Below, one piece after another: positions 15,284-61,696 of a stretch of 64,000 nucleotides of DNA. A program made the position numbers and the translations under genes. Location of the stretch: assembly GCF_037892195.1 (NCBI RefSeq), contig NZ_JATACI010000002.1, positions 1,798,001 through 1,862,000 of the forward strand. The letters are read 5' to 3'. The notes below the pieces were generated by a model. It did not search any database. It had not been told where the DNA came from and saw only the letters and a program-made list of their open reading frames with translations. Every line of letters starts with the position of its first letter. Within the stretch, counting starts at the first letter, position 1. The DNA is from Yoonia sp. GPGPB17 (GTDB lineage Bacteria > Pseudomonadota > Alphaproteobacteria > Rhodobacterales > Rhodobacteraceae).

Positions 15284-16356
15284 ATGATCGATTTTCTGGT
15301 TATCGGTGGCGGCATTGCTTAAGCGTTTCCGCCGCGGCGCGCTTGTCGGAATTGGGCACCGTCACCCTGCTGGAAGGCGAAGATGCGCTGGCGTATCACA
15401 CCTCTGGCCGGTCCGCCGCGCTGTTTGAACAGAACTACGGTAAGCCCTCGACGGTCGCGCTGAACAAGGCAAGCCGTGCCTTTCACGATGCTGCCGGTGT
15501 GCTTAGCCCACGCGGGCTACTGTTGGTTGGAAGTGCAAGCACGGCTGATCATTTCGCTGCAGATGTAGGGCAGATGAAACTTGACCGGATCAGCATGCAA
15601 CAGGCCAAGGATATGGTACCTATCCTGAATGAGGATGTGTTGGATCGCGCCGCCTATCACGCGGCAGCATGGGACATTGATACCGACAAGCTGATCCAGA
15701 CCTTCGCACGCACGGCCCGCGACAATGGCGCGACCGTCAGTACAAAGGTGCAGGTCGACGATATCAAACACACTGGCACCGGTTGGGTTGTCAGCGCAGG
15801 CCCGCTGAGTTTTGAGGCGCGTCATCTGGTGAATGCAGCGGGGGCCTGGGCAGATCATGTTGCGGGTTTGGCAGGTGTCGCCACATTGGGTTTCACACCA
15901 CTGCGCCGCTCTATGGCCCGTATTCCCGCGCCCGGAGGTCATGACGTCAGTACATGGCCTATGCTGTTTGGCCCCGGGGAAGATTGGTATGCTAAGGCCG
16001 ACGCAGGTGCGCTGATCGTCTCGCCCGCAGAAGAAGACCCGACAACGCCCCATGACGCCTATGCTGATGACATGGTTTTGGCGGAAGGGCTGGCGCGGTA
16101 TGAGGCCAACGTGACCGAGCCGGTTACACGACTGCTCAGCTCTTGGGCGGGGCTGCGCACATTTGCACCGGATCGGAACCTTGTTCTGGGGCCAGATCCA
16201 CAAGAACCCAGCTTTATCTGGTGCGCAGGACAGGGTGGATACGGCATGCAATCAGCACCCGCAGCCAGCCAGTTGCTGGCTGATTTGCTCAGCGGGGCGG
16301 CATCGGACCTGCCAGTGGACGCTGTCACAGCACTCTCTCCCCAGAGGTTTGCATGA
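15284..16356 (+). CDS. FAD-dependent amine/D-amino-acid oxidoreductase (DAO family), frameshifted as read
   Basis: The protein would begin MIDFLVIGGGIAGVSAAARL, the dinucleotide-binding GxGxxG of the DAO family, and run 356 residues, with the conserved SGRSAALFEQNYG loop, the substrate-barrel region, and the closing block WCAGQGGYGMQSAPAASQ. As read, the codons for Ala-Gly are replaced by GCTTAAGC at 15317-15324, giving an in-frame TAA and a two-base shift. Removing two bases restores one frame of 357 codons. The original would be GCCGGC (finding 1). Likely reaction is oxidation of a glycine- or D-amino-acid-like substrate; exact substrate unknown. The stop overlaps the next start as ATGA. 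Confidence 0.85.
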
Positions 16357-17060
16357 CCGCACGTTTGAATGCCCAAGGGCAACCCATCGGCGACTTGGTG
16401 CCAAACTGGACCGGATGCGCGACAATCCCGCACACGGCGATGCAGGGGCGCACCTGCGAAGTGGTCCCTCTAACGACCCAGCACAGCGCTGATTTGCATA
16501 CAGCCTTTGCGCAAGATACCACCGGAACGCTTTGGACCTATATGCCCAATGGCCCCTTCTCATCAGAGGCGGACTACGCCGATTGGGTGGCCCAAGCCGT
16601 GCACAGCAAAGACCCTCTCTTTTTTGCAGTCATCGACATGTCCACTGGTAAGCCAGTTGGCGTTGCCAGCTTTCTGCGTATCCAGCCCGAGAATGGCGTG
16701 GTCGAGGTGGGATACATCACCTTTGCCCCCGCCCTGCAACGCAGGGTCATGGCGACAGAGGCCATGTATCTGATGATGAAGCGCGCACTGGGCGAATTGG
16801 GCTACCGCCGGTACGAATGGAAATGTGATGCACTGAATGCGCCATCGCGGGTCGCTGCCGCAAGGCTGGGATTTCAATATGACGGGCTGTTCAAACAAGC
16901 GCTGGTATACAAGGGGCGCAACAGGGATACAGCGTGGTTTTCGGTACTTGATCGCGATTGGCCACAGCTGGAGGCAGAGTTCGCAAGATGGCTGGACCCC
17001 AATAATTTTGATGCTAGTGGCAAACAAAAAACTACACTACGCATGAAGATGACCGATTAA
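16353..17060 (+). CDS. GNAT-family N-acetyltransferase
   Basis: A 235-residue protein of the RimJ/RimL-like GNAT group. It has the acetyl-CoA binding segment in LQRRVMATEAMYLMMKRAL (Gln/Arg-x-x-Gly/Ala type) and the following ELGYRRYEWKCDALNAPS block with the Asn that contacts the cofactor. Starts 4 bases inside the oxidoreductase gene (ATGA), so it is translationally coupled. Substrate not known; the pairing with a DAO-family oxidase suggests a role on an amine or amino acid, which is inference. Confidence 0.85.
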   Translation: MTARLNAQGQPIGDLVPNWTGCATIPHTAMQGRTCEVVPLTTQHSADLHTAFAQDTTGTLWTYMPNGPFSSEADYADWVAQAVHSKDPLFFAVIDMSTGKPVGVASFLRIQPENGVVEVGYITFAPALQRRVMATEAMYLMMKRALGELGYRRYEWKCDALNAPSRVAAARLGFQYDGLFKQALVYKGRNRDTAWFSVLDRDWPQLEAEFARWLDPNNFDASGKQKTTLRMKMTD

Positions 17061-17145
17061 TACAAGAGGCAGGTTTTCCAGACTGGTAAGCCTTCGTAAA
17101 TGCCTCAAACTAACGGCACCTGCAGTCACAAAAGAAAGCATACCG

Positions 17146-17649
17146 ATGACCCGTTTGACCCTCGCCACAGCGATCTGTCTTTTGCCCATCACTGTCAGCG
17201 CCGAAACCCAGCTTGAGCGTTTTGAGGCATTGTCAGATAAAATGAATGTCGTGATGATCGACATGATGGCCAATGAAATCGAACAACAAGGCGGTGATGC
17301 GACAGCCCTGCGCGCGCTTGATGGCATGGTGCCGCCATGGACCGATGAAATTCGCGCAGCCGCAGGGTGCATTCTTGACACTTATATTGACGAAACCAGC
17401 GCAAGCGATGTCGACGACATGCTGACTGAAATGGACGCTATGCTGCCAACATTGTCATCGATGACAATGACTGAGGCGACCGATAACGGTGTATTTGACG
17501 CAATGACACCGGACGGTATCACCGACGAACGCATGTTAGAGATCAACGGCGCATGCGGCATGATGGAATTGCAAATCGAAGCCAGCAAGAATTCTGGCTT
17601 TATGGAAGCGATGATGGCCGCAGGATCGACGGTCCCCGACAACAACTAG
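17146..17649 (+). CDS. Secreted protein of unknown function
   Basis: A 167-residue protein with a Sec signal peptide (residues 1-19, ending VSAE). The mature protein is acidic and Met-rich, mostly helical, with two Cys (CILDTYID and GACGMMEL) that could form a disulphide in the periplasm. No family recognised. It ends convergently with the next gene, the two stop codons sharing CTAG at 17646-17649. Confidence 0.6.
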   Translation: MTRLTLATAICLLPITVSAETQLERFEALSDKMNVVMIDMMANEIEQQGGDATALRALDGMVPPWTDEIRAAAGCILDTYIDETSASDVDDMLTEMDAMLPTLSSMTMTEATDNGVFDAMTPDGITDERMLEINGACGMMELQIEASKNSGFMEAMMAAGSTVPDNN

Positions 17650-17936
17650 ATCTGATGAAAGCGTAAGGGTTTGCTATCTTCACGGACGACAACGCCTTTT
17701 GCCTCTAGATCCAGTTGAACGCATTTTTGCCACCAGCCCGAAGTAGCACCGCCAGGGAACAGATCCTCAGGCAGAAGCGGCTTGGCCGCCTCTTTGGCTT
17801 CATTGGCTGTCATGCCTGGGGCTGATTTAGGCAGAGTGGCCAGCATCGCCTGTTTCATGGCCACATATTTGGCCTTGTCGACATTGGTGGTGCGACCGGG
17901 CGTGTTGATGTTCTCAACGGCAATCTTCTCTGACAT
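17646..17936 (-). CDS. Small conserved protein, probably DUF6958
   Basis: A 96-residue protein with the pattern ENINTPGRTTNVD, APGMTANEAKEA, LPEDLFPGG and WWQKCVQLDLEAKGVV that I associate with the DUF6958 family of alphaproteobacteria. The C-terminal half looks like a winged-helix (LDLEAKGVVVREDSKPLRFH), which could bind nucleic acid, but nothing proves it. A hairpin at 17956 separates it from the oxidoreductase gene upstream. Confidence 0.55.
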   Translation of the reverse strand: MSEKIAVENINTPGRTTNVDKAKYVAMKQAMLATLPKSAPGMTANEAKEAAKPLLPEDLFPGGATSGWWQKCVQLDLEAKGVVVREDSKPLRFHQI

Positions 17937-17955
17937 GTGCGGACCTTTCTAAAGT

Positions 17956-17981
17956 GTAAGGTGGGTTCAAACCCACCTTAC
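17956..17981 (-). terminator. Perfect 12-base-pair inverted repeat after the GcvT-type oxidoreductase
   Basis: GTAAGGTGGGTT and AACCCACCTTAC pair around CA. It begins 13 bases past the stop of the leftward gene at 17995. On the minus strand the stem is followed by ACTTTAG rather than a strong T run, so it may be a weak terminator or an mRNA end-stabilising hairpin. Confidence 0.6.
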
Positions 17982-17994
17982 AAGGCTACGCCTG

Positions 17995-20490: not shown

Positions 20491-20652
20491 GATGACGACT
20501 CCTTGGCATCTTTGGCGGTAACTTGCGCGAAACCTGGCAGCGGCGATAGAACCAGCCGACCGGATACGGCGCAAAACCGACAAGGATCAGGGTTTCCCGA
20601 CTAGGCAGAACGCGCCAAACATGTTCCCTTACGTCAATTTAGGGGTAAGACG

Positions 20653-22289: not shown

Positions 22290-22398
22290 GCAATGCCCTC
22301 CCACGGGTTTTCAAATCGGCCTTGTCATGGCAGGTTGCGCCAAAGGGACGCGCAGCACAAGAACCGCGCGCCGCAAAAGTGAGCAGTAAGGGTAAACA

Positions 22399-22929: not shown

Positions 22930-24956
22930 GCCGCCTTGTCGAGACCCCGCCCTTTCAGCAGCGCCTCAACCCCGGGCAAACGCCCCCTGAACGCCTTGTA
23001 AAGCTCGGCCGCATCGACTGAACCGCCTGAAGACAAAATTGTCTTCTCCAATCGTTTTGCCGTCTCCTTGTCAAAGGGGCCGCCATTTTCCTCAAATGCA
23101 GCAAAAGCATCTGCATCCATCACCTCGGACCACATGTAGCTGTAGTATCCACTGGAATAGCCATCGCCCGCAAAGACATGGGCAAAATGCGGCGTCGCGT
23201 GGCGCATCCGAATGGCATGTGGCATTCCGATATCTTCCAGGATTTCCGCCTGACGCTGCATTGGGTCCGCCGGAGCCGGGCCATTGTGAAAGCCCAAATC
23301 AACAAGCGCCGAAGCCACATACTCCACGGTCTGGAAACCCATGTCATAGGTGGCTGCACCTAGCATCCGATTCAACAGATCCTCTGGCATCGGATCACCG
23401 GTCTCAGCATGGGTCGCGAACTCAGCAAGCACTTCCGGCACTTCCAGCCAGTGTTCATAAAGCTGACTTGGCAGTTCGACAAAATCACGTGCAACTGATG
23501 TGCCCGAAATGCTTTCGTAGGTCACATCAGACAGCATCTGATGCAGCGCATGACCGAACTCATGAAACAGCGTGCGCGCATCATCGTATGACAACAACGC
23601 AGGCTTACCTTCTTCCGGCTTGGCGAAGTTACATACATTGACAACATGAGGGCGAATGTCGCCGCTCAGCCGCTGCTGAGACCGCATCGCCGAACACCAC
23701 GCACCGGAACGCTTCGACCCACGGGCAAAATAGTCACCGATAAATACCGCAACATGTTCACCATCGCGGGTGACGTCCCACATCCGCACATCCGGGTGAT
23801 AGATAGGTCCCTCAATTGCCGCAAACTCCAGACCAAACAGGCGATTGGCGCAGGCAAATGCAGCTTCAATCATGCGATCGAGTTGCAAATAGGGCTTGAG
23901 TTCGGCTTCATCGAGGTCGTGCAACTCCTTGCGGCGTTTTTCAGAATAGAAACGCCAGTCCCAAGGTTCCAGCGGCCCGTCAAACCCATCTGCATGCAGC
24001 ATACGTTCCAAGACGGTAGCATCAGCTTCCGCCGCTGCCTTTGCTTAGGCGTCCAGACTTTCATCAAAAGATCACGCACCGCGCTGGGCGTGCTTAGCCA
24101 TTTCCGTCTCTAGCTTGAAGTCAGCGAAGGTATCATAGCCCAGCAGGTTGGCACGCTCTTCACGCAACTTCAGCGTCTCAGCGGCGATGCCACGGTTATC
24201 TGTCTTGCCGCCATTGGCACCACGCGCGCCCCACGCTTCATAGGCTTTCTTGCGCAAATCGCGTCGTTCAGAGAATTGAAGGAAGGGCACGATCAGCGAG
24301 CGGGACAGAGTGACAACAGGTCCGCCTGCCTCTTTCTCTTCGCCAGCCGCCTTTGCGGTCGCAACCACAAAATCCGGCAAACCAATCAGATCGTCTTTGC
24401 TCAGCGTCATGAACCATTCACGCTCATCGGCCAGCAGGTTCTGCGTGAACTCCGTTCCCAGCACCGACAGACGGGATTTCACGGCGCGCAAGCCCTCAGC
24501 CGCTTTGCCCTCCAGCTTTGAGCCTGAGCGCACAAAGCCACGGCGGGTCAGCATCAACACCCGCTGTTGTTCATCCGTCAGGTCCAATGCGGCACGTTGT
24601 TCCCAAACCGCCTCAACACGGGCAAAGAGCGCCTTATTCTCGGATACCTCGGACCCATAAGCGCTCAAGAGCGGTGCGAAATCGCGCTGCAATGCTTCGC
24701 GCTTGGGGTTACTATCCGCGCCAGCAACGTTGTAGAACGCGCCCAAAACGCGGCTCAGCATTTCATCTGCCCGTTCCAACGCCTCGACCGTATTCGCAAA
24801 ATCTGGCGCGTCCGCATTGTCGGCTATGGCCGCGACATTGGCGCGCGATTCTGCCAAAGCGGCATCAACGGCAGGAGCGAAATCGTCATCGGTGATCAGA
24901 TCAAAGGGCGGCAATCCAAAGGGTGTGGTCCAGTCTTGCAACAGCGGATTCGTCAT
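22926..24956 (-). CDS. M3-family oligopeptidase (peptidyl-dipeptidase Dcp/OpdA type), two frameshifts as read
   Basis: The repaired protein is about 675 residues, normal for Dcp/oligopeptidase A. N-terminal part: MTNPLLQDWTTPFGLPPF; zinc motif HEFGH in DARTLFHEFGHALH, with the downstream Glu in the ESISG region. It hydrolyses small peptides in the cytoplasm. Two short changes break the frame: GCTTAGC at 24092-24098 (one base extra, expected Met-Ala-Gly-Thr-Pro) and GCTTAGGC at 24043-24050 (two bases extra, expected Trp-Thr-Pro-Ala-Lys). Together they add three bases, so the frame is only off for about 15 codons, yet stops occur there. Both restore to GCCGGC. Single gene convergent with the SH3b gene. 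Confidence 0.88.
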
Positions 24957-25012
24957 GGGGGTTCTCCTTTGAGGAACAGATAGTGTCGCGGTGACAGAAC
25001 ACCATAGCCAAA

Positions 25013-26067
25013 CTAAGTGAACGCGAGCCCCTTACCACCGCAAACCTTACAATCCGCATGCGGTTTCACGGCAATGGTGCGCGTTTGGGCATAGAGCGCA
25101 TCATAAATCAGCAAACGACCACCAAGACCCTCGCCCGCACCGGTGATCAGTTTCACGGTCTCAACGGCCATCATCGCGCCCATCACGCCCGGCAATGGTC
25201 CGATCACCCCAGCCTCCGCGCAGGAAGGGACCAAGGAAGGGTCTGGCGCGTCGGGGAACACACAAGCGTAGCACGGTGTCCCTTTTGCTGGATCGTAGAC
25301 GCTGATTTGCCCTTCCCATTGGGTAAGGGCTGCAGCGACCAAAGGCCTCTCCGTCGCGACGGCTGTTTTATTGACTAGATAGCGGGTTTCAAAATTGTCG
25401 GTTCCGTCGAGGATCAAATCATAATCCGCAAAAAGCTCAGCCGCGATACTTGCATCCAGCCTGCGGTGGTAGGGCCGCACGGTCACAAAGGGATTCTGCG
25501 CCGTCATCGCCTCGGCCGCGGAGTGCACCTTGGGCATGCCGATGTTGCGATCAAGGTGGATGACTTGTCGCTGCAAATTGGCGTTTTCGACAACATCATC
25601 ATCGATCACACCAATCGTTCCCACACCTGCCGCCGCCAAATACTCCAGCGCGGGCGCGCCCAGACCGCTTCGGCCCCAACGACCAAGACCTTGGCATCGC
25701 GCAACGCCTTCTGGCCCGGCCCACCGACCTCGCGCAGGATGATATGGCGGGCATACCGATCCAACTCAGTCGGTGAAAAGCTATCGGACTGCGGCACAGG
25801 TGCCTGTTGCTGTTTGACGCGCGCACGTAACGCACCCAGAAACTTGCGGTACCCCCAAATCAACACGCCAAAACCAAAGAATATCGCCCAAAGCCGGGCA
25901 TCACCGCCCGTCGCCATCCGCAGCGGGTGACCATCGGGCAGGATCACATGGATCGTCATAACGCCGACCAAAAGGATCGCCATCATATTCCAGCGCACCG
26001 CGTAGGGCACCTTCATCGCCCATCCAATCACCCAAAGGGTGATGGCCATGGTGCCGACCATAATCAT
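25013..26067 (-). CDS. moeB: HesA/MoeB/ThiF-family adenylyltransferase with N-terminal membrane segments, frameshifted as read
   Basis: The repaired protein has about 350 residues. Residues 1-75 hold two or three hydrophobic segments ([43 protein letters not shown]), so the enzyme is probably tethered to the membrane. The rest is an E1-like adenylating domain: [30 protein letters not shown], and two zinc Cys pairs (CYACVF and CKVCGG). The family adenylates the C-terminal Gly-Gly of MoaD or ThiS for sulphur transfer in molybdopterin or thiamine synthesis. At 25667-25674 the read GCTTCGGC (minus strand GCCGAAGC) replaces GCCGGC and shifts the frame by two. Starts four bases inside dut. Confidence 0.85.
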
Positions 26068-29900: not shown

Positions 29901-30591
29901 ATGGCTTATGAACTCTATATTGGTGATCGCACTTTCAGCAGTTGGTCTTTGCGAGGCTGGCTGATGCTGGAAAAATTTGGACTACCCTATCAGACGCATA
30001 TGGTCGGGCTTTATGCGGGTACCATGAAGGCTGATTTGGCTCATCTTAGACCGGCCCGCACAGTTCCGGTCATGCAGACAAGCGATGGTCATGTCCTGAC
30101 CGACAGTCTTGCGATGGCCGAAACGCTGGTGGAAAACCACCCTCAGGCTTAGCCTTTACCCAGCAGGGCCCGGCGCTCGTGCGCTTGCCAGATCCATGAC
30201 CGCAGAGATGCACAGCGGTTTTCAAGCCTTGCGCGAAGCCTGCCCCATGATGCTTAGCTTTTGTTGGGAAGGCTTCGAAGCTTCGCAGGCTGTGCAAGAC
30301 GACTTGCTGAGAATAGAAGACCTCTGGTCGCTCGCCCGGGCACGCCACGGGGCAAATGGGCCTTGGCTCTTTGGTGAATACTCACTTGCGGATGTATTCT
30401 ACGCACCTGTTGCGATGCGCATCACGGCTTACAAACTGTCTGTCAGTGATGAATCGCAGGCTTATGTTTCCGCGCATCTCAGCGATCCTGCATTTTTGGC
30501 CTGGCGCAAAGCTGCAATGGAAGATGTGTATGAACCATTCCCATACGAACTGCCGCTCGCACGCAGCTCATGGCCCGGTGATACAAATTAA
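29901..30591 (+). CDS. Glutathione S-transferase family protein, frameshifted as read
   Basis: About 229 residues after repair. The thioredoxin-like N-terminal domain begins YELYIGDRTFSSWSLRGWLM with the Ser-x-x-Ser-x-Arg glutathione loop, then RTVPVMQTSDGHVLTDSLAM. The helical C-terminal domain includes WLFGEYSLADVFYAPVAMRI, the usual N-capping box. The Gln-Ala-Gly-Leu at codon 82-85 is written GCTTAGC at 30147-30153, giving a TAG and a one-base shift; GCCGGC restores it. Substrate unknown. The ribosome site is weak, and the short hairpin lies just upstream. Confidence 0.85.
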
Positions 30592-35662: not shown

Positions 35663-38438
35663 CCCGACTTCACCGCTAGACGACGGTGCGCCGGACGGTT
35701 TGATCTGTCCGGCGTCTGCTATTTTTGATGCCGACGTGGTGATCGCACAGATCGATACCGCCGTTGTAGAGGCAACGTCCGAAAAGGCCATTCGCGCGGC
35801 AACCGTGGGTGCGCTCGCTGCCGCACGTTCCGCGGGCATGCTGCAGATCGCCACGGCTTTCCGCGCGCAACCATTTGCGTCACGCCCCACAACACGTGCG
35901 TATAGCTGGCTGACCGATCAAATCGTCAAAACGGTTCTGAAAGTTGCGACCGACCGCTTGCACCCGCTACCAAACCCCACTGAAAGTGAGCGGCTTTCGC
36001 TGATTGCGGTGGGCGGCTACGGGCGCGGAGAAATGGCCCCGCAATCAGACGTCGATTTGTTGTTCCTGACGCCCTACAAGATCACGCCCTGGGCTGAGAG
36101 TGTGATCGAGTCGATGCTCTACATGCTGTGGGACCTCAAGCTAAAGGTTGGCCACGCCAGCCGTACCGTCAAAGACTGCCTTCGGCTGGCCAGGGAAGAT
36201 TATACGATCCGCACCTCGCTGGTAGAGTATCGGCATTTAGCGGGAGATGCCGCGCTCGCGACAGAACTGGGTGACCGGCTTTGGTCAGAGCTGTTCAAAT
36301 CTACCGCGAGCGATTTCATCGAAGCAAAACTGGAAGAACGCGCGACCCGCCACCGCAAACAGGGCGGGCAGCGTTATGTGGTTGAACCCAACGTCAAAGA
36401 GGGCAAAGGCGGGTTGCGCGACCTGCAATCGCTTTTCTGGATCAGCAAATACGTCAATGGCGTCAAAGATGCGGCTGAACTGGTCAACCTCGGGGTCTTT
36501 GCGTCGGAAGAATTCGAAACCTTTGTCACAGCCGAGGATTTCCTTTGGGCGGTGCGCTGTCACTTGCATCTTATTGCTGGTTAGCCGACCGACCAGTTGA
36601 CGTTCGATATGCAGGTCGAAGTGGCGTCGGCGATGGGGTATCTTGATCACGGCGGCAGGCGCGGGGTCGAGCATTTCATGCAGGCCTATTTCCGGCAGGC
36701 GACTCACGTCGGAGAGTTGACACGTATTTTTCTGACGGCACTGGAAGCAAGCCACACCAAACAAGAACCTATGCTGGCGCGGTTGCTGAAGCGGCGCAAG
36801 AAGGCCAAACCGCCCTACGCCATCAAACAGAACCGGCTCACCGTCGCAAACGAAAAGGCGTTTCTGGCTGACAAACTGAATATCCTTCGCCTGTTTGAAG
36901 AGGCGCTGCGCACTGGCACGCTGTTACACCCCGACGCGATGCGCCTGATCTCGGCAAATCTCGACCAGATTGATGCCGATATGCGCGACGACAAGGAGGC
37001 ACGCCGCATCTTCCTTGATCTGCTGCTCAAGCACGGCAATCCCGAACGGGCTTTGCGGCGGATGAATGAACTGGGCGTCTTAGCCGCGTTCATTCCTGAA
37101 TTCGCACCGATTGTCGCGATGATGCAATTCAATATGTACCACCACTTCACAGTGGACGAACATACGATTCAATGCATCAGCACGCTTGCCCAGATCGAGC
37201 GCAATGAGTTGATTGAGGAACTGCCAGTCGTGTCTGGCATTCTGGAGCGTGGCGTGAATCGCAAGGTCCTTTATGTGGCGCTACTGCTGCATGACATTGG
37301 CAAAGGGCGCGACGAAGATCACTCTGTCCTTGGTGCACAGATCGCGCGCAAGGTTGCGCCACGACTGGGGCTGAACAAGAAGGAGTGCGAGACGGTAGAA
37401 TGGCTGATCCGCTATCATCTGCTACTCTCCGATGTGGCCCAGAAGCGCGATATCTCTGAACCCCGCACCGTGCGCGGTTTTGCCAAGGCCGTGAAATCTG
37501 TCGAACGGTTGGATTTGCTGACCGCGCTGACCGTCTGCGATATTCGCGGGGTTGGGCCAGGGACATGGAACAACTGGAAGGCGGTCCTAATCCGCAACCT
37601 CTACAAGGCCACAAAATCCGCGTTGGAGACCGGTCTGGAAGACCTCAACCGTGAAACCCGCGAGGCCGAGGCCAAGCGTGCCTTACGTACGGCACTATCC
37701 GATTGGGACAACAAGACGCTGAAAGCCGAAATCGGGCGACACTATGGGCCTTATTGGCAAGGCCTTCCACTGGCGGCGCAGACGGTCTTTGCAACACTTC
37801 TGCGCGATATTGCTGATGACGAGATCAAAATCGACCTGATGTTGGACGAAGACCGCGATGCGACGCGGGCCTGCTTCGCCATGGTCGATCATCCGGGGCT
37901 TTTCAGTCGTATGACGGGCGCACTGGCATTGGTGGGGGCAAACGTGGTGGATGCGCGCACTTATACGTCTAACGACGGTTATGCTACCGCCGTATTCTGG
38001 GTTCAGGACAATGACGGCAACCCATATGAAGCTGCGCGCCTACCGCGCCTGCGCCAAATGATTGAGCGGACCTTGCGGGGCGAAGTCGTTGCGAAAGATG
38101 CACTCAAAGACAAAGACAAGATCAAGAAACGCGAACGCGCCTTCAAGGTTCCAACAAATATCAGCTTCGACAATGAAGGGTCAGAAATCTATACGATTAT
38201 CGAGGTCGATACCCGCGACCGTCCCGGACTTCTCTACGATTTGACACGAACACTTGCACATAATCACGTCTACATCGCCTCAGCCGTCATTGCGACTTAT
38301 GGGGAACAGGTCGTCGATACATTCTATGTAAAAGACATTGTCGGATTGAAGTATCACTCCGAGGCCAAACGTGCCGGGCTAGAACGCAAACTGCGCGCAG
38401 CGATTGCACAGGGTGCAGAACGCGCGGTGTCAGGATGA
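35622..38438 (+). CDS. glnD: [Protein-PII] uridylyltransferase/uridylyl-removing enzyme, in-frame stop as read
   Basis: A 938-residue nitrogen sensor that uridylylates or deuridylylates PII proteins according to glutamine. Order: nucleotidyltransferase motif GGYGRGEMAPQSDVDLLF at residues 131-148, the HD hydrolase motif LLHDIGKGRDEDHS near residue 555, and two C-terminal ACT domains. A TAG at codon 321 (36582-36584) interrupts HLIAG-R-PTDQLTF; the six bases 36580-36585 read GTTAGC where GCCGGC would give Gly-Arg-Pro. The frame is otherwise continuous to 38438. The TTG start at 35622 overlaps the lipoprotein gene; a GTG at 35646 after AAGAAG is an equally good start. Confidence 0.9.
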
Positions 38439-38497: not shown

Positions 38498-40061
38498 ATG
38501 AAACCCATCCGATTGATGGCAGGCTTCTTCACGGTCGGCATCTGGACACTGCTAAGCCGCATAATGGGCTTTGTGCGCGATATCATGATTGCAGCGTTTC
38601 TTGGCACCGGACCCGTGGCCGAAGCCTTTCTGATCGCCTTTTCCCTGCCGAACCTGTTTCGACGGTTCTTTGCCGAAGGCGCATTCAACATGGCTTTCGT
38701 GCCTATGTTTTCCAAGAAAGTCGAAGGCGGCGATAACCCACACCGTTTTGCGCAAGATGCCTTCGTCGGCCTTGGCGGCATCCTGACCGTTTTCACCGTG
38801 CTTGGCATCATCTTCATGCTAGGCCCTCGTAACGCTGATGGCCAGCGGTTTTCTCGGAACCGAGCGTTTTGATCTGGCTGTATATTATGGGCGCATCGCT
38901 TTCCCCTATATCTTGTTCATTTCGCTAACCGCACTGTTGTCTGGCGTGTTAAATGCCACCGGCCGCTTTACGGCAGCAGCAGCAGCGCCGATCCTTTTGA
39001 ACGTCGTCTTTGTTGCTACGCTGGCGATTTTTGGCGTGACCTGTGACTGCACCGGGTCGGAAGGACAGAACATCATCGGTCAATCGCTGGCATTTGCTGT
39101 ACCGCTGGCAGGTATCGCTCAATTGGCTGTTGTCTGGTTCGCGGCAAATAGGGCCGGATATGCTTTGCGCGTCGGCATGCCGAAGATGACACCTGAGTTG
39201 AAACGGCTCGCCATTATCGCAGCCCCCGCAGCCCTTGCAGGTGGCGTGGTACAGATCAACTTGTTGGTGGGCAGGCAGGTCGCCAGTTTCTTTGATGGCG
39301 CTGTCGCTTGGTTAAGCTATGCGGACAGGCTTTATCAATTGCCTTTGGGTGTTGTGGGTATTGCGATTGGTGTCGTGCTCTTGCCTGACCTGTCGCGACG
39401 TTTACGCGCGGGCGATGACGCTGGCGGGAGGGACGCGTTCAATCGCGCTTCCGAGATCAGCCTTGCGCTGACCGTCCCGGCCTCGGTCGCCCTGCTTACA
39501 ATCCCGCTGCCACTGGTCAGCGTGCTGTTCGAACGGGGTGCCTTTACCAGCGACGATACAGCAGCTACGGCGTTGGCTGTTGCTATCTATGGGTTGGGCC
39601 TACCTGCATTTGTGCTGCAAAAGACGCTCCAGCCGCTGTTCTTTGCCCGTGAGGACACAAAACGCCCCTTTTACTACGCACTGATTGCGATGGTGTTGAA
39701 CGCCGCTCTGGCGATTGGTCTAGCCCCTGTCATTGGCTTTGCAGCGGCGGCAATCGGAACTTCGCTAACAGGCTGGGCAATGGTGCTACTTTTGATACGT
39801 GGGACACGCACCATGGGCGATGCGGGCAAGTTCGATGGCCGGTTCAAGCGCCGTCTGGGCCGGATTGTTCTCGCCTCGGGCAGTATGGGGTGCATCCTAG
39901 TGCTGACCTCAACAACGATGACGCCGTTCTTTGGTCCTGGCATTCAGCGCTATCTGGCATTGCTCGTATTGATCGCGATTGGCATCGTCAGCTATTTTGG
40001 GATCGGCCATTTGATCGGCGCTTTTAAACTCTCCGAATTTCGGCGCAACTTGCGTGGTTAG
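38498..40061 (+). CDS. murJ: Lipid II flippase MurJ, frameshifted as read
   Basis: About 520 residues and 14 membrane helices after repair. It flips lipid II across the inner membrane for peptidoglycan synthesis and is normally essential. N-terminal signature: GFFTVGIWTLLSRIMGFVRD, PNLFRRFFAEGAFNMAFVP; later LPLVSVLFERGAF. At 38818-38824 the read GCTAGGC adds one base and breaks Phe-Met-Pro-Ala-Leu-Val; GCCGGC restores it, and 1563 coding bases remain, a multiple of three. ATG 38498 is the usual start MKPIRLMAG. The stop overlaps that of the rhomboid gene (TTAG). Confidence 0.92.
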
Positions 40062-44026: not shown

Positions 44027-44639
44027 TGGATCGCACTGCAGCGATGGCGATTGCAGCCGCAGTTCCCGTTCTTGCCGCAGCGTTTTACCTTCTCACAAGA
44101 CTGTTGCCACCATTCTGGGGGTACGGTGCTGCGCTGGCGTTTTACTGGGTCTGTGTCCTGATCCCGCTCATCTTGTGGCGCGGCACATGGCGGCATATGA
44201 AATTGCGGCCTGTTCTGCCAAGATCATGGCTCACGTTTCTAAACATTGGCATGATTGCTTAGGCGTCGCAATCACCGCCCTCTTTGCGTTACTGGCGCAC
44301 CCAATTCCGCTTTGGGTCGGTGGGGTCATTGCGCTGGGCGCATTGATGAATGGCACCCTGGAAGAGGTGTTCTGGCGCGGCACCGTCCTACTTGATGACG
44401 CCACACCAGCCCAACAAATCGGCCAACTTGGGCTCTTTACCGGTTGGCATGTTGCCTTGCTCTTCGCGACTGGTGTGGTGGTGACGGGTGGGGCCGCAGG
44501 TGTCTTGGGTGGTGCGGCAATTGGCGGCGCACTCTGGACATTGGCACGCGTGCAAACTGGCAGCATCGGTTTCGGCGCGATATGTCATGTTGCACTTAAT
44601 CTAGTTGCCTTCACTGAATTGGCGACACACAACCTGTGA
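44026..44639 (+). CDS. CPBP-family intramembrane protease (Abi-like), frameshifted as read
   Basis: About 203 residues and six or more membrane helices after repair. The motif EEVFWRG (EExxxR) with the downstream HVALLF and CHVALN histidines is the glutamic-protease core of the CAAX-protease/bacteriocin-processing family. The Ile-Ala-Gly-Val codons are written GCTTAGGC at 44257-44264, giving a TAG and a two-base shift; GCCGGC restores 204 codons. Target protein unknown. Coupled to the UspA gene by TAATG. Confidence 0.8.
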
Positions 44640-44673: not shown

Positions 44674-44676
44674 CCC

Positions 44677-47543: not shown

Positions 47544-49082
47544 ATGCCCGACACAGCCCCCGCCATTGAGTTGAAAGGAATATCCAAAGCCTTTGGCCCT
47601 GTTCAAGCGAACAAAGATATTTCCATTCGCGTCATGCCCGGCACAATCCACGGGGTCATTGGCGAGAACGGTGTAAGCAAATCGACACTGATGTCTATTT
47701 TGTACGGGTTTTATAAGGCTGACGCGGGTGAAATCTTCATCTCGGGTCAGAAAACGGTCATTCCAGATAGCCAGGCCGCCATTGCGGCAGGCATCGGCAT
47801 GGTGTTTCAGCACTTCAAGCTGGTCGAGAACTTCACGGTGCTCGAAAACGTCGTTCTTGGCGCAGAAGACAGCGGTCTATTGCGCCCTTCTTTGGCACGT
47901 GCGCGCCGCGAGCTGAAAAGCCTTGCAGAGGAATACGAGCTGAACGTGGATCCTGATGCGGTGATCCAGGATGTTGGTGTGGGGATGCAGCAGCGTGTCG
48001 AAATCCTCAAAGCGCTTTACCGCAAAGCCGATATCCTGATTCTGGACGAACCCACCGGCGTTTTGACACCTGCCGAGGCTGACCACTTGTTCCGCATTCT
48101 TGAGAACCTCAAGCGCGAGGGTAAAACCATTATCCTGATCACGCATAAACTGCGCGAGATCATGGAAATCACCGATACGGTCAGCGTCATGCGCCGCGGC
48201 GAGATGACTGCGACGGTGAAAACATCAGACACCAGTCCAGCCGAGCTGGCCGAGCTTATGGTAGGGCGTAAGGTTCTATTGCGTGTCGATAAGGCCCCCG
48301 CCCAGATCGGCAAGAAAATTCTCGAAGTCAAAGACTTAAACGTCACCGACAGTAAGGGCGTGCATCGCCTGAAAGGCGTCAGTTTTGACGTCCACGCTGG
48401 CGAAATTCTTGGCATTGCCGGGGTGGCGGGCAATGGCCAATCAGAGTTGTTGGAAGTCTTGGGCGGCTATGAAAAGGCCACCGGCTCGGTCAAACTGAAT
48501 GGCGAAGAGATCGACCTGACGGGTGCAAAGTCAGATGGCCAAAGCCGCCGTGCACGCGGGATCAGCCATGTACCAGAGGACAGGCAGCGCGAAGGTTTGA
48601 TCATGGATTTCCAAGCGTGGGAAAACACCGCCTTCGGCTATCATCATGACAACCGCTACCAGCGCTCAAAGCTGCTGATGAACAACGCGGCGATCCGCCA
48701 GGACACGGCTGAAAAGATGGAGCGCTTTGACGTCCGCCCCCCTGATCCAAGCCTTGCCGCCAAGAGCTTTTCCGGCGGCAACCAGCAGAAGATCGTGCTG
48801 GCGCGCGAGATCGAACGCAACCCTGATTTGCTGCTGGTTGGTCAACCGACACGCGGCGTTGATATCGGTGCGATCGAGTTTATTCACCAGCAAATTGTTG
48901 CACTTAGGGATCAGGGCAAGGCAATTTTGCTTGTTTCTGTCGAGTTGGAAGAGATTTTATCGCTCTCGGACCGCATCGCCGTTATGTTTGACGGAAAAAT
49001 GATGGGCGAGCGGATGCCTGATAAAACAGATGAAAAAGAACTCGGACTGCTAATGGCGGGCATGAGCGGGGAGGCAGCGTAA
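47544..49082 (+). CDS. Nucleoside ABC transporter ATP-binding protein, damaged Walker A as read
   Basis: A 512-residue protein with two ABC ATPase cassettes, the type used by BMP-linked (nucleoside) importers. The first Walker A reads GENGVSKST where the family has GENGAGKST; the codons GTA AGC (47673-47678) stand where GCC GGC is expected, so this is the same motif damage as elsewhere but in frame. The second cassette has GIAGVAGNGQSELLE and SFSGGNQQKIVLARE. Literal Ser at the Walker glycine would impair ATP binding. Ends one base into the permease (TAATG). Confidence 0.92.
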   Translation: MPDTAPAIELKGISKAFGPVQANKDISIRVMPGTIHGVIGENGVSKSTLMSILYGFYKADAGEIFISGQKTVIPDSQAAIAAGIGMVFQHFKLVENFTVLENVVLGAEDSGLLRPSLARARRELKSLAEEYELNVDPDAVIQDVGVGMQQRVEILKALYRKADILILDEPTGVLTPAEADHLFRILENLKREGKTIILITHKLREIMEITDTVSVMRRGEMTATVKTSDTSPAELAELMVGRKVLLRVDKAPAQIGKKILEVKDLNVTDSKGVHRLKGVSFDVHAGEILGIAGVAGNGQSELLEVLGGYEKATGSVKLNGEEIDLTGAKSDGQSRRARGISHVPEDRQREGLIMDFQAWENTAFGYHHDNRYQRSKLLMNNAAIRQDTAEKMERFDVRPPDPSLAAKSFSGGNQQKIVLAREIERNPDLLLVGQPTRGVDIGAIEFIHQQIVALRDQGKAILLVSVELEEILSLSDRIAVMFDGKMMGERMPDKTDEKELGLLMAGMSGEAA

Positions 49083-50187
49083 TGGATGTGATGCCAAAGT
49101 GGGCGGATGTCATCCTGATCCCTCTGATCTCGATCCTGCTGGCCGCAATCCTGTCTGCCTTGGTGATCCTTGCCATCGGTGAAAACCCTTGGGAAGCCCT
49201 CAAACTGATGGTCAGTGGCGCTTTGGGGTCCACTTATGGCTGGGGCTATACGCTCTATTACGCAACGAACTTCATCTTCACCGGTCTCGCTGTTTCCATC
49301 GCGTTTCATGCACGGTTGTTCAACATCGGTGGCGAAGGCCAGGCGCTGATCGGTGGCCTTGGCGTTGCAATCATCTGCCTCTTCATTCCTTGGCCGCATT
49401 GGTCATTGGCCTTGTTGGGTGCAGCCATTGGTGCCGCAATTTTTGGTGCGGCATGGGCCGCGATCCCTGCATTCCTGCAAGCCAAGCGCGGCAGCCACAT
49501 CGTGATCACCACGATTATGTTCAACTTCATCGCAGCGGCAGTCCTCAACTACTTCCTGATCGGCGCGTTGAAGGCGCCCGGTATGGAGCCTGCGACCGCG
49601 AAGTTCCCCGAAGCGACACACCTGCCGTCCTTTCAGGATATGTTCAATTTCGGCGAAACCACATTCTTTCGTGGTGCGCCCGCCAACATCACATTTTTCG
49701 TCGCGCTCGCAGCTTGCGTGTTCCTCTGGGCCCTGATCTGGAAAACACGTCTTGGCTATGAAATCCGGTCCTTCGGGCATTCGGAATCGGCTGCAAAATA
49801 CGCGGGCATCAGCCCGACAAAAATTATCATGGTTGCCATGCTTATCTCAGGCGCTCTTGCTTAAGCATGATGGCCATCAACAACGTACAGGGCGAGGCCG
49901 AACGGCTGGTCCTGAACGCAGTGGAGGGGGCGGGCTTTATCGGCATCGCCGTCGCACTGATGGGGCGCAGCCACCCTTTCGGAGTGTTGCTGGCCGCCCT
50001 TCTTTTCGGCTTTCTATATCAAGGCGGCGCAGAACTCGCCCTATGGACGTCGATCCCCCGTGAGCTGATTATCGTAATACAGGCATTGGTAATCCTCTTC
50101 ACGGGCGCACTGGACAATATGGTGCGCATGCCGCTCGAGCGGCTATTCCTATCAATGAGGAGAGCAAAAAATGGCAGGACCGTTTAA
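49082..50187 (+). CDS. Nucleoside ABC transporter permease (first), frameshifted as read
   Basis: About 367 residues and 8-10 helices after repair, of the BMP-associated (RbsC-like) permease family, with FNIGGEGQALIGGLG and EIRSFGHSESAAKYAGIS as conserved loops. At 49859-49866 the read GCTTAAGC (expected Leu-Ala-Gly-Met-Met) adds two bases and gives a TAA; GCCGGC restores it, and the protein continues INNVQGEAERLVLNAVEGAG. Overlaps the next small gene by 17 bases. Confidence 0.9.
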
Positions 50188-56381: not shown

Positions 56382-56441
56382 GTCTGCGACTGTATCTGGA
56401 CAGTTCAGGTGCTGCTAGCGCATTCGCAAGGTGGCTTCGCC

Positions 56442-56657
56442 TTAGGTCCGTCTGGCCAATCCAACCTTGGCCGATATCCCTGGAGCGACATCAACCTCGC
56501 TATGTTTTTTCGGACAAGACTTATCAGGTTTTGACGCGATCTCGACTTGGGCAACAAGCCCAGCCTCTTCCAACTGTGCAGATAGAAGGGGCATATCATT
56601 GTCGCGCGCAAAGCTGCGCAGATCGGCCAACACATCAATGATCCAATCTCGTCCCAT
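56442..56657 (-). CDS. Small conserved hypothetical protein
   Basis: A 71-residue protein starting MGRDWIIDVLADLRSFARDN. That N-terminal pattern is a recognisable feature of a small Roseobacter protein family of unknown function that I recall only generally. The rest (LSAQLEEAGLVAQVEIASKPD) is helical and the tail is basic. It reads toward the helicase gene. Confidence 0.55.
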   Translation of the reverse strand: MGRDWIIDVLADLRSFARDNDMPLLSAQLEEAGLVAQVEIASKPDKSCPKKHSEVDVAPGISAKVGLARRT

Positions 56658-56793
56658 GCGCCACCGTCCCCACAATTCGTTAAAGATGTATTAACAACCT
56701 ATACGTGTATCCAATGAATGAGAAAATATAGCAATAAAAAAGGGCGCAGTTACGATCACTGCGCCCAGCTTGGGAATGAGGTTGAGGTTGCTC

Positions 56794-58085
56794 TTAGCGG
56801 TCTCGGGATGCCTCCAGAGTATCTTCAAACGTGCGCAAGCCCATTTTTGGTGCTTGCACCAGCACGGACATATTGCCGGGCTTGTGTTCGTTCTTACGCA
56901 TTTTGGTATGGGCTGCGGGAATAGCACCCCACTCAAAACACTCTGACATACACGGATCAAGGCGCTGCTCCAGCATTAGCTTGTTGGCAGCACTCGCTTG
57001 GGCGAGGTGCGCAAAGTGACTGCCTTGCAGGCGCTTTTGGTGCATCCACATGTAGCGCACGTCAAAGGTACAATTGAAACCAGTCGTGCCTGCACAAATC
57101 ACCACCATACCGCCTTTTTTGCAAACCAATGAGGACACCGGGAAGGTTGCTTCACCAGGGTGTTCAAACACCATGTCGACGTTCACGCCTTTGCCAGTGA
57201 TTTCCCAGATCGCCTTGCCGAACTTGCGGGCCTCTTTCAGCCATGTGTTGTATTCGGGCGTATTCACCGTGGGCAACTGGCCCCAACAGTTAAGGTCATT
57301 GCGGTTGATCACGCCCTTCGCACCCAACGACATGACAAACTCACGCTTGCTTTCGTCACTGATCACGCCAATGGCGTTTGCACCTGCCGTATTGATCAAC
57401 TGGATCGCATAAGAGCCCAGGCCACCAGACGCGCCCCAAACCAAAACGTTCTGGCCCGGCTTCAAGTCATGCGGTTCATGGCCGAACAGCATGCGATATG
57501 CAGTGGCGAGCGTCAGCGTGTAACATGCGCTTTCTTCCCATGTCAGGTGCTGTGGGCGATGCATCAACTGCTGGGACTGCACGCAGGTGAACTGGGCGAA
57601 AGACCCATCTGGCGTCTCATACCCCCAAATGCGCTGGCTTTCGGAATACATCGGATCGCCGCCATTGCAGTGCTCATCATCGCCGTCATCCTGATTGCAG
57701 TGAATGACGACTTCATCACCCACTTTCCAGCGCTTAACCTTGTCGCCTACGGCCCAGACGATGCCTGCCGCATCAGACCCGGCAATATGGAATTCGGCCT
57801 TGTGCACATCAAACGGGCTGATCGGTATACCCAGTCCTGCCCAGACACCGTTGTAGTTCACGCGGCCGCCATCACGAGGACCAGAACCTCATTGCTGTCA
57901 GGCTTGGGTACATCTACGACCTCAAGCTGGAACGCCTTATCAGGCTCGCCGTGACGTCCGCGACGGATGGTCCAGGCATGCATCTGTGCGGGCACATGGC
58001 CCATCGGTGGCATCTCGCCCACTTCATAGAGGTCTTTTTCTGGTGCCGTGTATCCAGCTTGGTCGAGGGCCATCTCAGTCTCCAT
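56794..58085 (-). CDS. ccr: Crotonyl-CoA carboxylase/reductase, frameshifted as read
   Basis: A 430-residue medium-chain dehydrogenase that reductively carboxylates crotonyl-CoA to ethylmalonyl-CoA with NADPH and CO2, the marker enzyme of the ethylmalonyl-CoA pathway for acetyl-CoA assimilation. Sections: ALDQAGYTAPEKDLYEVGEM, DAAGIVWAVGDKV, HCNQDDGDDEHCNGGD and ASGGLGSYAIQ (Rossmann). The Met-Ala-Ala-Gly-Val codons around 57862-57866 are short by one base (GCCGC instead of GCCGGC on the minus strand), giving TGA; adding it gives 431 codons. The upstream part contains METEMALDQ as start. Confidence 0.95.
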
Positions 58086-58192
58086 TACTCAGGTTCCAGT
58101 GTTGCCGCACCGCAGAATCGGTCGCGTTGGAACCTAAATAAGCGACAGTAAAGTAACTTTGCAACCATTATAAGGATAATTTTGTAATTTAA

Positions 58193-59590
58193 TTACTCTG
58201 CAAGCGCAGAAACCGTGCCTGAATTTGCTGCACCTGCATCAAAATGATGCGCGATCGAGTTCGCATAGAAGCTCAGGATGTCTTGCCCCAGCTCAGTCAC
58301 AGCTATCCCTGCCTCAGATTCAACAATAAGCTTGCGGGCAAGAAGGCGGCTTAGCGCATCATCGACAACGTCTTGCACCGACCGATTGGGGGCAGGCAGC
58401 TTGTGTTCCTTCAAAAATATCAGCGACTGCGAGACGGATGCCTCAAGATCAGACCGCATCATCGGAGATGCCTGTAGAAGATGGCGCGATACCAGTGGCA
58501 CGCCGACAACGGGCATGACCTCTGCAATCCGCTTCATCAGCTCGTTGGCAATCTGCTCAGTGAGATCATGAACGCCGTCGGCATGGAACTTTGACAGTTC
58601 AAGTGGTTCGCCAAAACTCACTGAGGCCACGCCAAACCCTCGGAATCGCCGCGTGATCCGCAAACCGACGTGCCGCATGACACGCCGAAAGACATTCGTA
58701 AAAGGCGGTTTGAACTTGCGTGTACCCGACCTGTCGGCGGCGATCAGGATCGTGTCCTCCAAAACACGGTCGTAGTTCACCGCGACAGGCACAAAGATCA
58801 CCTCGCGGGCGTCAGCATCAAAGTCTTCGACAACATAGTTCAGCAAACCCATCCGTGGCTTAGCCAGCAGCCCGTCAAGGCTCAACCCACCCTCCGGAAA
58901 CACGGCCTGACTAACGCCACCGCGTGTGGCCATCTGCACATAGCGGGCAAGAACCTTGCGATACAGGGCCCCTCGGGACTTACGCCGAATAAAGTAAGCC
59001 CCCATTGCCCGAATAATCGCTGATAACGGCCACACCCGGGCCCATTCACCAACAGCATAGGACAATGCGCCCGCATTTGCCGCGAGATACGTCACTAAAA
59101 CATAGTCCATGTTGCTGCGGTGGTTGATGACAAAGATAACAGCCGCATCAGGATCAATCTCTTCCAGACGCTTCCGATCAAACGTACCGAGCTTGATCCG
59201 ATAGAGAGATTTGGATAGCCAACGCGCCAACCTGATGCCAATGCTGAAGTAAGCCGTCGCAGAAAACCCCGGCACGATTTCGCGCGCATAACGGCGTGCC
59301 TTCTCAAAAGCCACATTCTCTGGGATCTGCTCTTTGCGCGCGTGTTCGACAATGGCCTGCGTTACCTCCGGATCGTAGATCAGGCGCTGGATCATGTCAT
59401 AGCGACGCGCAAGCTTGAACGGCTCGATGGGGCGTTGGAGCCGCTCGTTCAATTGGGCAATGACCCGTTCAGCCCGTTTGCGAAAAAACCACCGCACAGA
59501 CGGGAACAAGAAATGCGACGCAAAGGTCACGGCAGCGAACAGGACCACAAGAACGAAGGCCCAGAGTGGCAAAGAAACGGTTTGCGTCAT
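58193..59590 (-). CDS. Glycerol-3-phosphate acyltransferase-like protein (PlsB family)
   Basis: A 465-residue protein with one N-terminal membrane helix (LWAFVLVVLFAAVTFASHFL) and the acyltransferase motifs INHRSNMDYVLV (HxxxxD) and VFPEGGLSLDG. It resembles PlsB, which makes lysophosphatidic acid, but is shorter than E. coli PlsB (about 800). A related role in phospholipid acylation is inferred. Frame is open up to 59866, but that segment overlaps ecm's divergent promoter region; MTQTVSLPLW at 59590 is the likely start. Confidence 0.82.
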   Translation of the reverse strand: MTQTVSLPLWAFVLVVLFAAVTFASHFLFPSVRWFFRKRAERVIAQLNERLQRPIEPFKLARRYDMIQRLIYDPEVTQAIVEHARKEQIPENVAFEKARRYAREIVPGFSATAYFSIGIRLARWLSKSLYRIKLGTFDRKRLEEIDPDAAVIFVINHRSNMDYVLVTYLAANAGALSYAVGEWARVWPLSAIIRAMGAYFIRRKSRGALYRKVLARYVQMATRGGVSQAVFPEGGLSLDGLLAKPRMGLLNYVVEDFDADAREVIFVPVAVNYDRVLEDTILIAADRSGTRKFKPPFTNVFRRVMRHVGLRITRRFRGFGVASVSFGEPLELSKFHADGVHDLTEQIANELMKRIAEVMPVVGVPLVSRHLLQASPMMRSDLEASVSQSLIFLKEHKLPAPNRSVQDVVDDALSRLLARKLIVESEAGIAVTELGQDILSFYANSIAHHFDAGAANSGTVSALAE

Positions 59591-59727
59591 AGTTTGAGGG
59601 TGACAGGGAACGCCGGATAGGTAAATCCCATCATGCCGCAACGCAGCGAATTGACAGCGCCATAAAATGTCCGATAAACAGCAACTCGTGTAATTAAATT
59701 GCGCATACTGATTCAGGAGAGCCGCAA

Positions 59728-61696
59728 ATGTCGCAGTCGCAGAAAGATCGCCCCTGGTTGTTCCGGACCTATGCCGGTCACTCGACCGCGGCGGCGTCGA
59801 ACGCGCTCTACCGTGGTAACCTTGCCAAGGGGCAAACCGGTCTTTCCGTCGCTTTTGATCTGCCAACGCAGACGGGTTACGACAGCGATCACATCTTGGC
59901 GAAAGGTGAGGTTGGCAAGGTGGGCGTCCCCGTCAGCCACTTGGGTGACATGCGCGCCCTGTTCAATAACATCCCGCTTGATCAGATGAACACCTCGATG
60001 ACGATCAACGCGACCGCCCCATGGCTCCTGTCGCTCTACATCGCGGTTGCAGAAGAACAGGGTGCAGATATCCGCGCCCTGCAAGGCACCGTTCAAAACG
60101 ATATCATCAAGGAATACCTGTCGCGCGGCACCTACATCTGCCCGCCCGAGCCATCCCTCCGCATGATCACCGACGTAGCGGCATACACCCGCGAACATCT
60201 GCCCAAATGGAATCCGATGAACGTGTGCTCCTATCACCTGCAAGAAGCGGGGGCCACGCCAGAAGAAGAACTCGCCTTTGCGTTGGCGACAGCGACAGCG
60301 GTATTGGATAACCTGAAAGGCAAAGTTGCCGCCAAAGACTTTCCAGCGATGGTGGGGCGCATTTCATTCTTTGTGAACAGCCGGCATTCGTTTTGTCACA
60401 GAGCTTTGCAAAATGCGGGCCTTCGTTGAATTGTGGGACGAAATTTGCGCCAATCGCTACGGCGTTGAAGATGCCAAATACCGCCGTTTCCGCTATGGCG
60501 TTCAGGTCAATTCGCTTGGGCTGACCGAGCAGCAACCCGAAAACAACGTTTACCGCATTCTTCTGGAAACACTCGCCGTCACGTTGTCCAAGAACTCGCG
60601 GGCCCGTGCTGTCCAATTGCCCGCATGGAATGAAGCGCTCGGCCTGCCCCGCCCTTGGGACCAGCAATGGTCCCTGCGCATGCAGCAGATTTTGGCCTAT
60701 GAAACGGATTTGCTGGAATTCGATGACCTTTTTGACGGCAATCCCGCAATTGATCGCAAAGTAAATGAACTCAAAGACGGTGCACGCGCTGAATTGGCGC
60801 AAATCGACGGGATGGGTGGCGCGGTCGGCGCGATTGCGTATATGAAATCGCGATTGGTTGAAAGCAATGCCGCCCGGATCGGTGGCATTGAAAAGGGCGA
60901 CACAACCGTCGTTGGCGTCAACAAATGGCAGACCGGGGAACCTTCGCCACTGACCGCAGGCGATGATGCCATCATGGTTTCTGATCCCGAGGCAGAGGCT
61001 GATCAATTGCACCGCCTGAATGCATGGAAATCCGACCGCGACAGTGCAGCTGTCAACGAAGCGCTCGCGGCGCTACGTGCGGCAGCAAAAGATGGCAGCA
61101 ATATCATGCCGCCGTCTATCGCCTGTGCCCGTGCGGGTGTGACAACGGGTGAATGGTCGGACGTGATCCGAAACGTCTTTGGCCAGTATCGCGCACCCAC
61201 GGGCGTCAGCAGCAATCCGTCCAACCGGACTGAGGGGCTTGAAGACCTGCGCGAGCAGGTCGATCTGGTCAGCACGGCACTTGGCCGCCGATTGAAATTC
61301 CTGGTCGGCAAGCCGGGGCTGGACGGTCATTCAAATGGGGCCGAACAGATCGCGGCGCGGGCGCGCGACTGTGGCATGGATATCGATTACGAAGGTATTC
61401 GTTTGACGCCAGAAGAAATCGTCACGGCTGCCCAAAATGGTGATTGCCACGTCATTGGCCTGTCCATTCTGTCAGGATCACACATCCCATTGGTCCGGGA
61501 TGTAATGAACAGACTGCGCGCCGCGGGTATTGCCCATATTCCCGTAATTGCCGGTGGCATTATTCCCGATGATGACGCAAATGAATTGCGCGCCATGGGT
61601 GTCGCGCAGGTTTACACGCCGAAAGATTTTGAGTTGAATAAAATCATGAGTGATATCGTGACACTGGTCGACCCGCGGTCAGTCGCAGCCGAATAG
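59728..61696 (+). CDS. ecm: Ethylmalonyl-CoA mutase, frameshifted as read
   Basis: About 655 residues after repair. It is a B12-dependent mutase that turns ethylmalonyl-CoA into methylsuccinyl-CoA, the step after Ccr. The N-terminal TIM-barrel region holds YAGHSTAAASNALYRGNL and GLSVAFDLPTQTGYDSD; the C-terminal B12 domain has GKPGLDGHSNGAEQIA, where DxHxxG places the cobalt-ligating His. A one-base A inserted before GCCGGC (60379-60385) breaks Val-Asn-Ala-Gly-Ile-Arg; removing it gives 656 codons. ATG 59728 has AGGAG eight bases upstream. Divergent from plsB. Confidence 0.94.

Follow-up and report, generated by a model that had tools for sequence, protein, structure and literature searches.

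The stretch analysed here (64,000 nucleotides, "the window" below) is part of the 3.84 Mb contig C2, the chromosome in a genome of 4.21 Mb assembled in five contigs. The source bacterium is a Yoonia-like marine member of the Rhodobacteraceae, and Yoonia and Loktanella species are the closest named relatives for one window protein. Within the window, ten genes have broken reading frames and an eleventh, encoding an ABC-transporter ATPase, carries a missense change in its Walker A motif. We consider here how these disruptions relate to the hexamer GCCGGC and to a NaeI-type restriction-modification gene pair elsewhere on the same chromosome.

Disrupted genes in the window

Twelve coding disruptions within 45 kb had been listed in an earlier note made from the sequence, and all 12 strings are present at the coordinates given there (Table 1). 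The initial G and terminal GC of a GCCGGC site are kept in every one of them, and the changes fall between, save for an extra A at 60379. For a scan blind to the motif, reference proteins for 60 window genes (59.0 of the 64 kb) were taken from syntenic stretches of five congeners and from seven named loci, and frame changes and stops were recorded in a frameshift-aware protein-to-DNA alignment with at most three references per gene (161 alignments). The scan recovered all 11 listed frame breaks or stops, the one at 44257 in its sole available reference. The twelfth site, 47673, is a substitution and as such invisible to a frame scan; it was verified by aligning the DNA with that of five relatives, which have the Ala-Gly codons GCGGGC, GCAGGT, GCGGGC, GCAGGT and GCTGGC there. 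A post hoc filter (at least two references, reference residue at least 12, more than 12 residues from the C-terminal end) passed 18 break positions, 10 of them listed sites; the residue limit was picked so that 15317, at residue 12, stays, and otherwise 9 of 17 breaks would be listed sites. An additional 39 events, each in a single reference, were set aside. The disruptions thus stand as described, although the count of nine genes with broken frames has to be corrected to ten (the M3 peptidase gene has two sites), plus the ABC ATPase.

The proposal that one lost GCCGGC is common to all twelve is supported, with exceptions. Each of the 4096 hexamers was ranked by the number of breaks where it could encode the residues of the orthologues, and with agreement of all references required, no other hexamer did as well at the listed breaks as GCCGGC, which fitted 8 of 11. 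When one reference sufficed it fitted 10 of 11, the miss being 44257, where the lone reference (67% identical) is incompatible with GCCGGC. At 60379 the hexamer itself is intact behind the extra A, and two congeners (G009 and G006) have GCCGGC at 60380 without that base. The chance level is low, as GCCGGC could encode the residues at 6.6% (312 of 4707) of all positions in these proteins, and at six further break positions GCCGGC fitted none in all references (34428 fits in two of three). Apart from 24092, 38818 and 60380, the relatives compared use other codons at the aligned places, so that at any single site elsewhere we infer the hexamer.

Errors thus concentrate on one motif, and some other breaks lie at homopolymers. 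Three of the eight unlisted breaks in the blind scan are of the latter kind, at 7074 (GGGG), 26628 (C6, coaBC) and 38455 (A7), while the remaining five (11081, 20503, 22299, 29146 and 29215) are each either close to a gene start or in an N terminus that matches poorly. The coaBC break, on the minus strand in a run of six Cs and present against 3/3 references, is probably a homopolymer consensus error that is not linked to GCCGGC. The break in the GGGG run at 7074, also on the minus strand and in 3/3 references, falls in a large gene weakly similar to rhamnogalacturonidase. The possible frame change at the A7 run, just upstream of murJ and seen in 2/3 references, may be a mere difference in start site.

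Two intergenic sites in the earlier note, 47470 and 62158 (the latter correctly at 62157), had been put forward as possible further losses of GCCGGC. Alignment to relatives makes both look natural, with G004 having GCTAAGGC at the first and G002 having CCTAAGCTGGGCC at the second, and a further GCTTAGGC at 5332 likewise looks natural.

GCCGGC and its altered forms across the genome

GCCGGC is scarce in the whole genome, with 166 copies compared to 242-1456 in 12 congeners, and its ratio to CGGCCG (166/1225 = 0.14) compares with 0.37-0.96 in those congeners, two of which are incomplete. A k-mer scan that was blind to the motif compared 442 kb of this genome (11.5% of the chromosome) with 400 kb from five congeners, and hexamers were considered if at least 8 copies were expected. 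GCCGGC was the most depleted hexamer, with 11 copies seen against 124.9 expected (0.09), and the next, GCGCGC (515 against 748.1) and CGCGCG (435 against 615.5), were at about 0.7 of expectation. The most enriched 8-mer was GCTTAAGC, found 17 times here and not at all in the 400 kb of the relatives; the runner-up, ATGGATGG, may be a repeat. Genome-wide, GCTTAAGC occurs 166 times compared to 19-52 times in eight congeners, a smaller excess than in the k-mer sample, yet a clear one. Its occurrence coincides with broken frames, since the best open frame was kept across none of the 17 sampled sites (11 with a frame change and 6 without a long frame), compared to 156 of 349 other TTAA sites.

The altered form GCTTAGGC is unevenly distributed between the strands, with 65 copies in the forward sense of the contigs and 29 in the reverse genome-wide (binomial P 2.6e-4), and the split is similar in the first (29:12) and second (31:13) half of the chromosome. 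The most uneven split among the 12 congeners is 27 to 15, in G004, and G019, from another genus, has 22 to 40. Judged by eye, seven of the eight non-palindromic strings listed in the window also stand in one sense on the plus strand of the contig, three of them in minus-strand genes; the exception is GTAAGC at 47673, which fits the reverse better. Seven of eight is weak when taken alone, and it is the genome-wide count that carries the argument. GCCGGC is palindromic, so real scars would be expected equally on both strands, and a strand bias of the altered strings therefore points to the consensus step and not to biology.

The NaeI-type gene pair

About 950 kb from the broken genes, the chromosome encodes a NaeI-family endonuclease and an adjacent C5-cytosine methyltransferase (Table 1), a pair found after the motif had been guessed from those genes. 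The endonuclease matches PF09126 with an E value of 1.1e-39 and 136.8 bits (cut-off 25), and NaeI itself (PDB 1ev7) with an E value of 2.2e-19 and 73 bits. All four positions that we take to be the catalytic residues of NaeI (E70, D86, D95 and K97) align to identical residues, and the endonuclease is apparently full length, its best homologue being 96% identical and also 294 amino acids long. It was found in none of the 55 other searched genomes of the genus and in 6 of 385 genomes of the class, the source genome included. In the other five carriers, the same type of methyltransferase (60-73% identity) adjoins the endonuclease in every case. Among the methyltransferase homologues, the best 19 (79-91% identity) include nine whose longest contig has the same size as that of one of the 120 NaeI homologues listed, which suggests that the two lie on shared contigs. 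At loci L153-L157, NaeI-like endonucleases are 32-37% identical to the one here and the adjacent methyltransferases 60-73%; judged from these sequences, the endonuclease seems to diverge far more quickly than the methyltransferase.

NaeI recognises GCCGGC according to PMC7653180; the site is printed as GCC|CCG in PMC4081073, which we take for a misprint. The depletion of GCCGGC is indirect support for recognition of this site by the predicted system, and the GCCGGC-specific methyltransferase that the earlier note had expected thus has a plausible candidate in this genome. Next to the operon, at L130:11602-14486 (C2:2815602-2818486), lie genes for a SIR2-like protein and a HerA helicase that look like a SIR2-HerA anti-phage pair, and the region may be a defence island.

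Searches of the genome for methyltransferases gave two C5 and three N4/N6 matches. A second type II pair, a C5 methyltransferase with an endonuclease (PADLOC PDLC03404, E 1e-132), lies at L131:10649-12782 on the 37 kb contig C4; no second hexamer was depleted like GCCGGC in the k-mer scan. Another methyltransferase open reading frame, at L114:10277-12840 (C2:342277-344840) near a phage-type integrase gene, is matched by N6_N4_Mtase only in its C-terminal part and is perhaps broken or split. This fragment (C2:342301) had been considered as the responsible enzyme and was set aside after the NaeI pair was found.

Table 1. Disruptions listed in the window, the other intact GCCGGC copy and the NaeI-type gene pair. 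Coordinates are those of the window unless prefixed with C2; references are those against which the change was seen.
Feature	Coordinates	Strand	Gene and change	References	Remarks
GCTTAAGC	15317..15324	+	Frame break near N terminus, FAD-dependent oxidoreductase (DAO family) gene	3/3	Family from orthologue
GCTTAGGC (plus reading)	24043..24050	-	Second break, M3-family peptidase gene	3/3	PF01432
GCTTAGC (plus reading)	24092..24098	-	First break, same M3-family peptidase gene	3/3	Aligned string in L009 is GCCGGC
GCTTCGGC (plus reading)	25667..25674	-	Frame break in glycine-rich motif, MoeB/ThiF-family adenylyltransferase gene	3/3	PF00899
GCTTAGC	30147..30153	+	Frame break, glutathione S-transferase (GST) gene	3/3	GST N-terminal domain; GCCGGC fits 1/3 references
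GTTAGC	36580..36585	+	In-frame stop, glnD ([protein-PII] uridylyltransferase)	3/3	NF003467 above cut-off; GCCGGC fits 2/3 references
GCTAGGC	38818..38824	+	Frame break, murJ (lipid II flippase)	3/3	TIGR01695 above cut-off; aligned string in L011 is GCCGGC
GCTTAGGC	44257..44264	+	Frame break, CPBP/Rce1-like membrane protease gene	1/1	PF02517
GTAAGC	47673..47678	+	Walker A missense, ABC-transporter ATPase gene, frame kept		Val-Ser for Ala-Gly; PF00005
GCTTAAGC	49859..49866	+	Frame break, ABC-transporter permease gene	3/3	PF02653
GCGGC, one base short	57862..57866	-	Frame break, crotonyl-CoA carboxylase/reductase gene	3/3	TIGR01751 above cut-off
AGCCGGC (intact GCCGGC, extra A in front)	60379..60385	+	Frame break, methylmalonyl-CoA-mutase-family gene	3/3	
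GCCGGC, only other intact copy in window	12010..12015				
NaeI-family endonuclease open reading frame	C2:2813438-2814322	Same as C5 gene	72 bp downstream of C5 gene		PF09126, PDB 1ev7
C5-cytosine methyltransferase gene	C2:2814395-2815351	Same as endonuclease gene			PF00145

Probable consensus error and its alternatives

The breaks are, with high probability, consensus errors of the assembly, probably a nanopore one, at GCCGGC sites methylated by the NaeI-type system, and not mutations. The C5 methyltransferase of the operon would modify GCCGGC on both strands, and the assembly would have been made from long reads of native DNA, most probably on a nanopore platform, with a basecaller that would misread the centre of the modified site, often as TT, TTA or TTAA. 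If the result was then left uncorrected by short reads, most GCCGGC sites would be written wrongly, a number that comparison with congeners puts at roughly 600 to 1000 in the genome, and genes that span such sites would look broken. Five contigs with a chromosome of 3.84 Mb, together with the homopolymer breaks, are compatible with a native-DNA long-read assembly without short-read correction, and a strand bias of GCTTAGGC and homopolymer breaks beside the motif breaks are as expected of an uncorrected long-read consensus. The earlier note had favoured consensus error over mutation, and the depletion of GCCGGC, the excess of GCTTAAGC, the gene pair, the strand bias and the accompanying homopolymer breaks all support it. 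Methylated motifs missing from basecaller training are a known cause of such errors (PMC6591954, PMC10687267). Methylated Dcm motifs are reported as about 70% of the consensus errors made by the default models of the then-current Oxford Nanopore Technologies basecallers in Klebsiella pneumoniae (PMC6591954), and untrained modifications as giving motif-bound errors in Listeria (PMC10687267).

Several points weigh against this interpretation. The listed sites were drawn up with GCCGGC in mind, and the hexamer ranking was therefore repeated on the 18 blind breaks, for which GCCGGC was again the unique best hexamer when all references had to agree (8 of 18), but only second when one reference sufficed (10, compared to 11 for GCGGGA). 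The 166 GCCGGC sites counted genome-wide are still intact, and the excess of GCTTAAGC (about 115-145) together with that of GCTTAGGC covers only part of the copies that are missing. The altered strings are also more varied and insertion-rich than plain C-to-T misreads would be, and GCTTAGC, one of the listed variants, is uninformative as a genome-wide marker, being not clearly enriched (163/180, compared to 44-260 in eight congeners). At the DNA level, with 72-76% identity, the GCCGGC sites of seven relatives showed no excess of insertions or deletions (4/37, compared to 3-17% in 14 control hexamers), perhaps because few sites are conserved; as little sequence is conserved at this level, the protein-guided comparison was used in its place. 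The nanopore platform is one that we infer, and the methyltransferase is assigned to GCCGGC through its neighbour and its family, in a genome with four further methyltransferase genes. Finally, a recent nanopore study puts methylation behind only 6.5% of assembly errors (PMC12392509).

There is a small chance that consensus errors at GCCGGC have a cause other than the NaeI-type methyltransferase, either another methyltransferase or a failure of the basecaller in this sequence context. The second type II pair on C4 and the three N4/N6-type methyltransferase genes would offer other enzymes, but GCCGGC is the known site of NaeI (PMC7653180), and the source genome is the only one of 56 in the genus with this endonuclease. 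A context failure should hit other GC-rich palindromes equally, which is not what the mild depletion of GCGCGC and CGCGCG indicates.

It is highly improbable that the breaks are real mutations, left when the cell's own NaeI cut unprotected GCCGGC and error-prone end joining added or removed a few bases at the blunt middle of the site. In favour, the endonuclease gene is present and most of the changes fall in the middle of the NaeI site, but such mutations would have broken murJ, glnD, the crotonyl-CoA reductase gene and the mutase gene together within 64 kb, and the depletion implies hundreds more. MurJ and CoaBC are essential, and we reason that a simultaneous real loss of the whole set of disrupted genes is not credible. 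Nor should scars in a palindrome prefer one strand of the contig, as GCTTAGGC does. Two other NaeI carriers, G392 and G119, sampled at 200 kb each, keep 84 and 280 GCCGGC with 2 and 0 copies of GCTTAAGC, respectively. Abundant GCCGGC without scars means that there, the NaeI system neither empties nor scars the genome, which counts against mutation and avoidance alike.

In all seven other genomes sampled (G002, G004, G006, G007, G009, G119 and G392), GCCGGC is under its Markov expectation, for example at 84 compared to 163.7 in G392, 280 compared to 367.1 in G119 and 23 compared to 51.0 in G004. Five of the seven are congeners without NaeI, and the avoidance is mild. That GCCGGC is truly absent through selection against the cell's own restriction sites, with the broken frames unrelated, has hardly any chance of being right despite this general shortage, as it leaves the breaks at GCCGGC-fitting positions of the orthologues and the excess of GCTTAAGC unexplained, and as the depletion in G392 and G119 does not exceed that in the five congeners that lack NaeI. 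Restoring the window would give 13 GCCGGC in 64 kb (12 broken plus the intact copy at 12010), compared to an expected 14.7 if the density of G004 (23/100 kb) applied and 18.1 if that of the five congeners taken together did (113/400 kb), which leaves little avoidance to explain.

If methylation-linked consensus error is the correct explanation, this record should not be taken to mean that the bacterium has lost murJ, glnD, the crotonyl-CoA reductase gene and other genes, and it affects any comparative study, pseudogene count or completeness score for which it is used. A methylated motif and its restriction-modification system would then be readable from the errors in a finished assembly alone. 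We also entertain, as a doubtful extension, that the cytosine in GCCGGC is modified otherwise than as plain 5-methylcytosine, or at a position outside the reach of any basecaller, strongly enough for the central CpG often to be called as TTAA in the consensus, and that such scars could be mined in public assemblies without raw reads to assign restriction-modification motifs across thousands of species. In the portions of the literature retrieved on GCCGGC with nanopore and methylation, or on NaeI with GCCGGC and methyltransferase, no account of this case was found. The artefact is of a known kind, and what we describe is a new instance with an unusually clean explanation within the same genome.

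Like the nanopore errors at Dcm motifs (CCWGG) described in PMC6591954, the errors here are systematic and tied to a single motif with a probably methylated cytosine, one on which the basecaller would not have been trained, and homopolymer errors form a second class. They differ in that the motif is GCCGGC, that the commonest recognised form, GCTTAAGC, is two bases longer than the site and that the platform is deduced. As in the Modpolish case (PMC10687267), a lineage-specific modification system is deduced from motif-bound errors in comparison with related genomes; the Listeria motifs described there, GCAGC and GCTGG, have uncertain enzymes, whereas here the genome has an endonuclease gene to match the motif, paired with a methyltransferase gene. 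The endonuclease resembles NaeI (PF09126; PDB 1ev7, 1iaw) over NaeI residues 16-263, keeps E, D, D and K and is adjoined by a C5 methyltransferase gene. It is shorter than NaeI (294 compared to 317 amino acids) and only distantly similar to it (73 bits), and GCCGGC is the predicted target of both cleavage and methylation.

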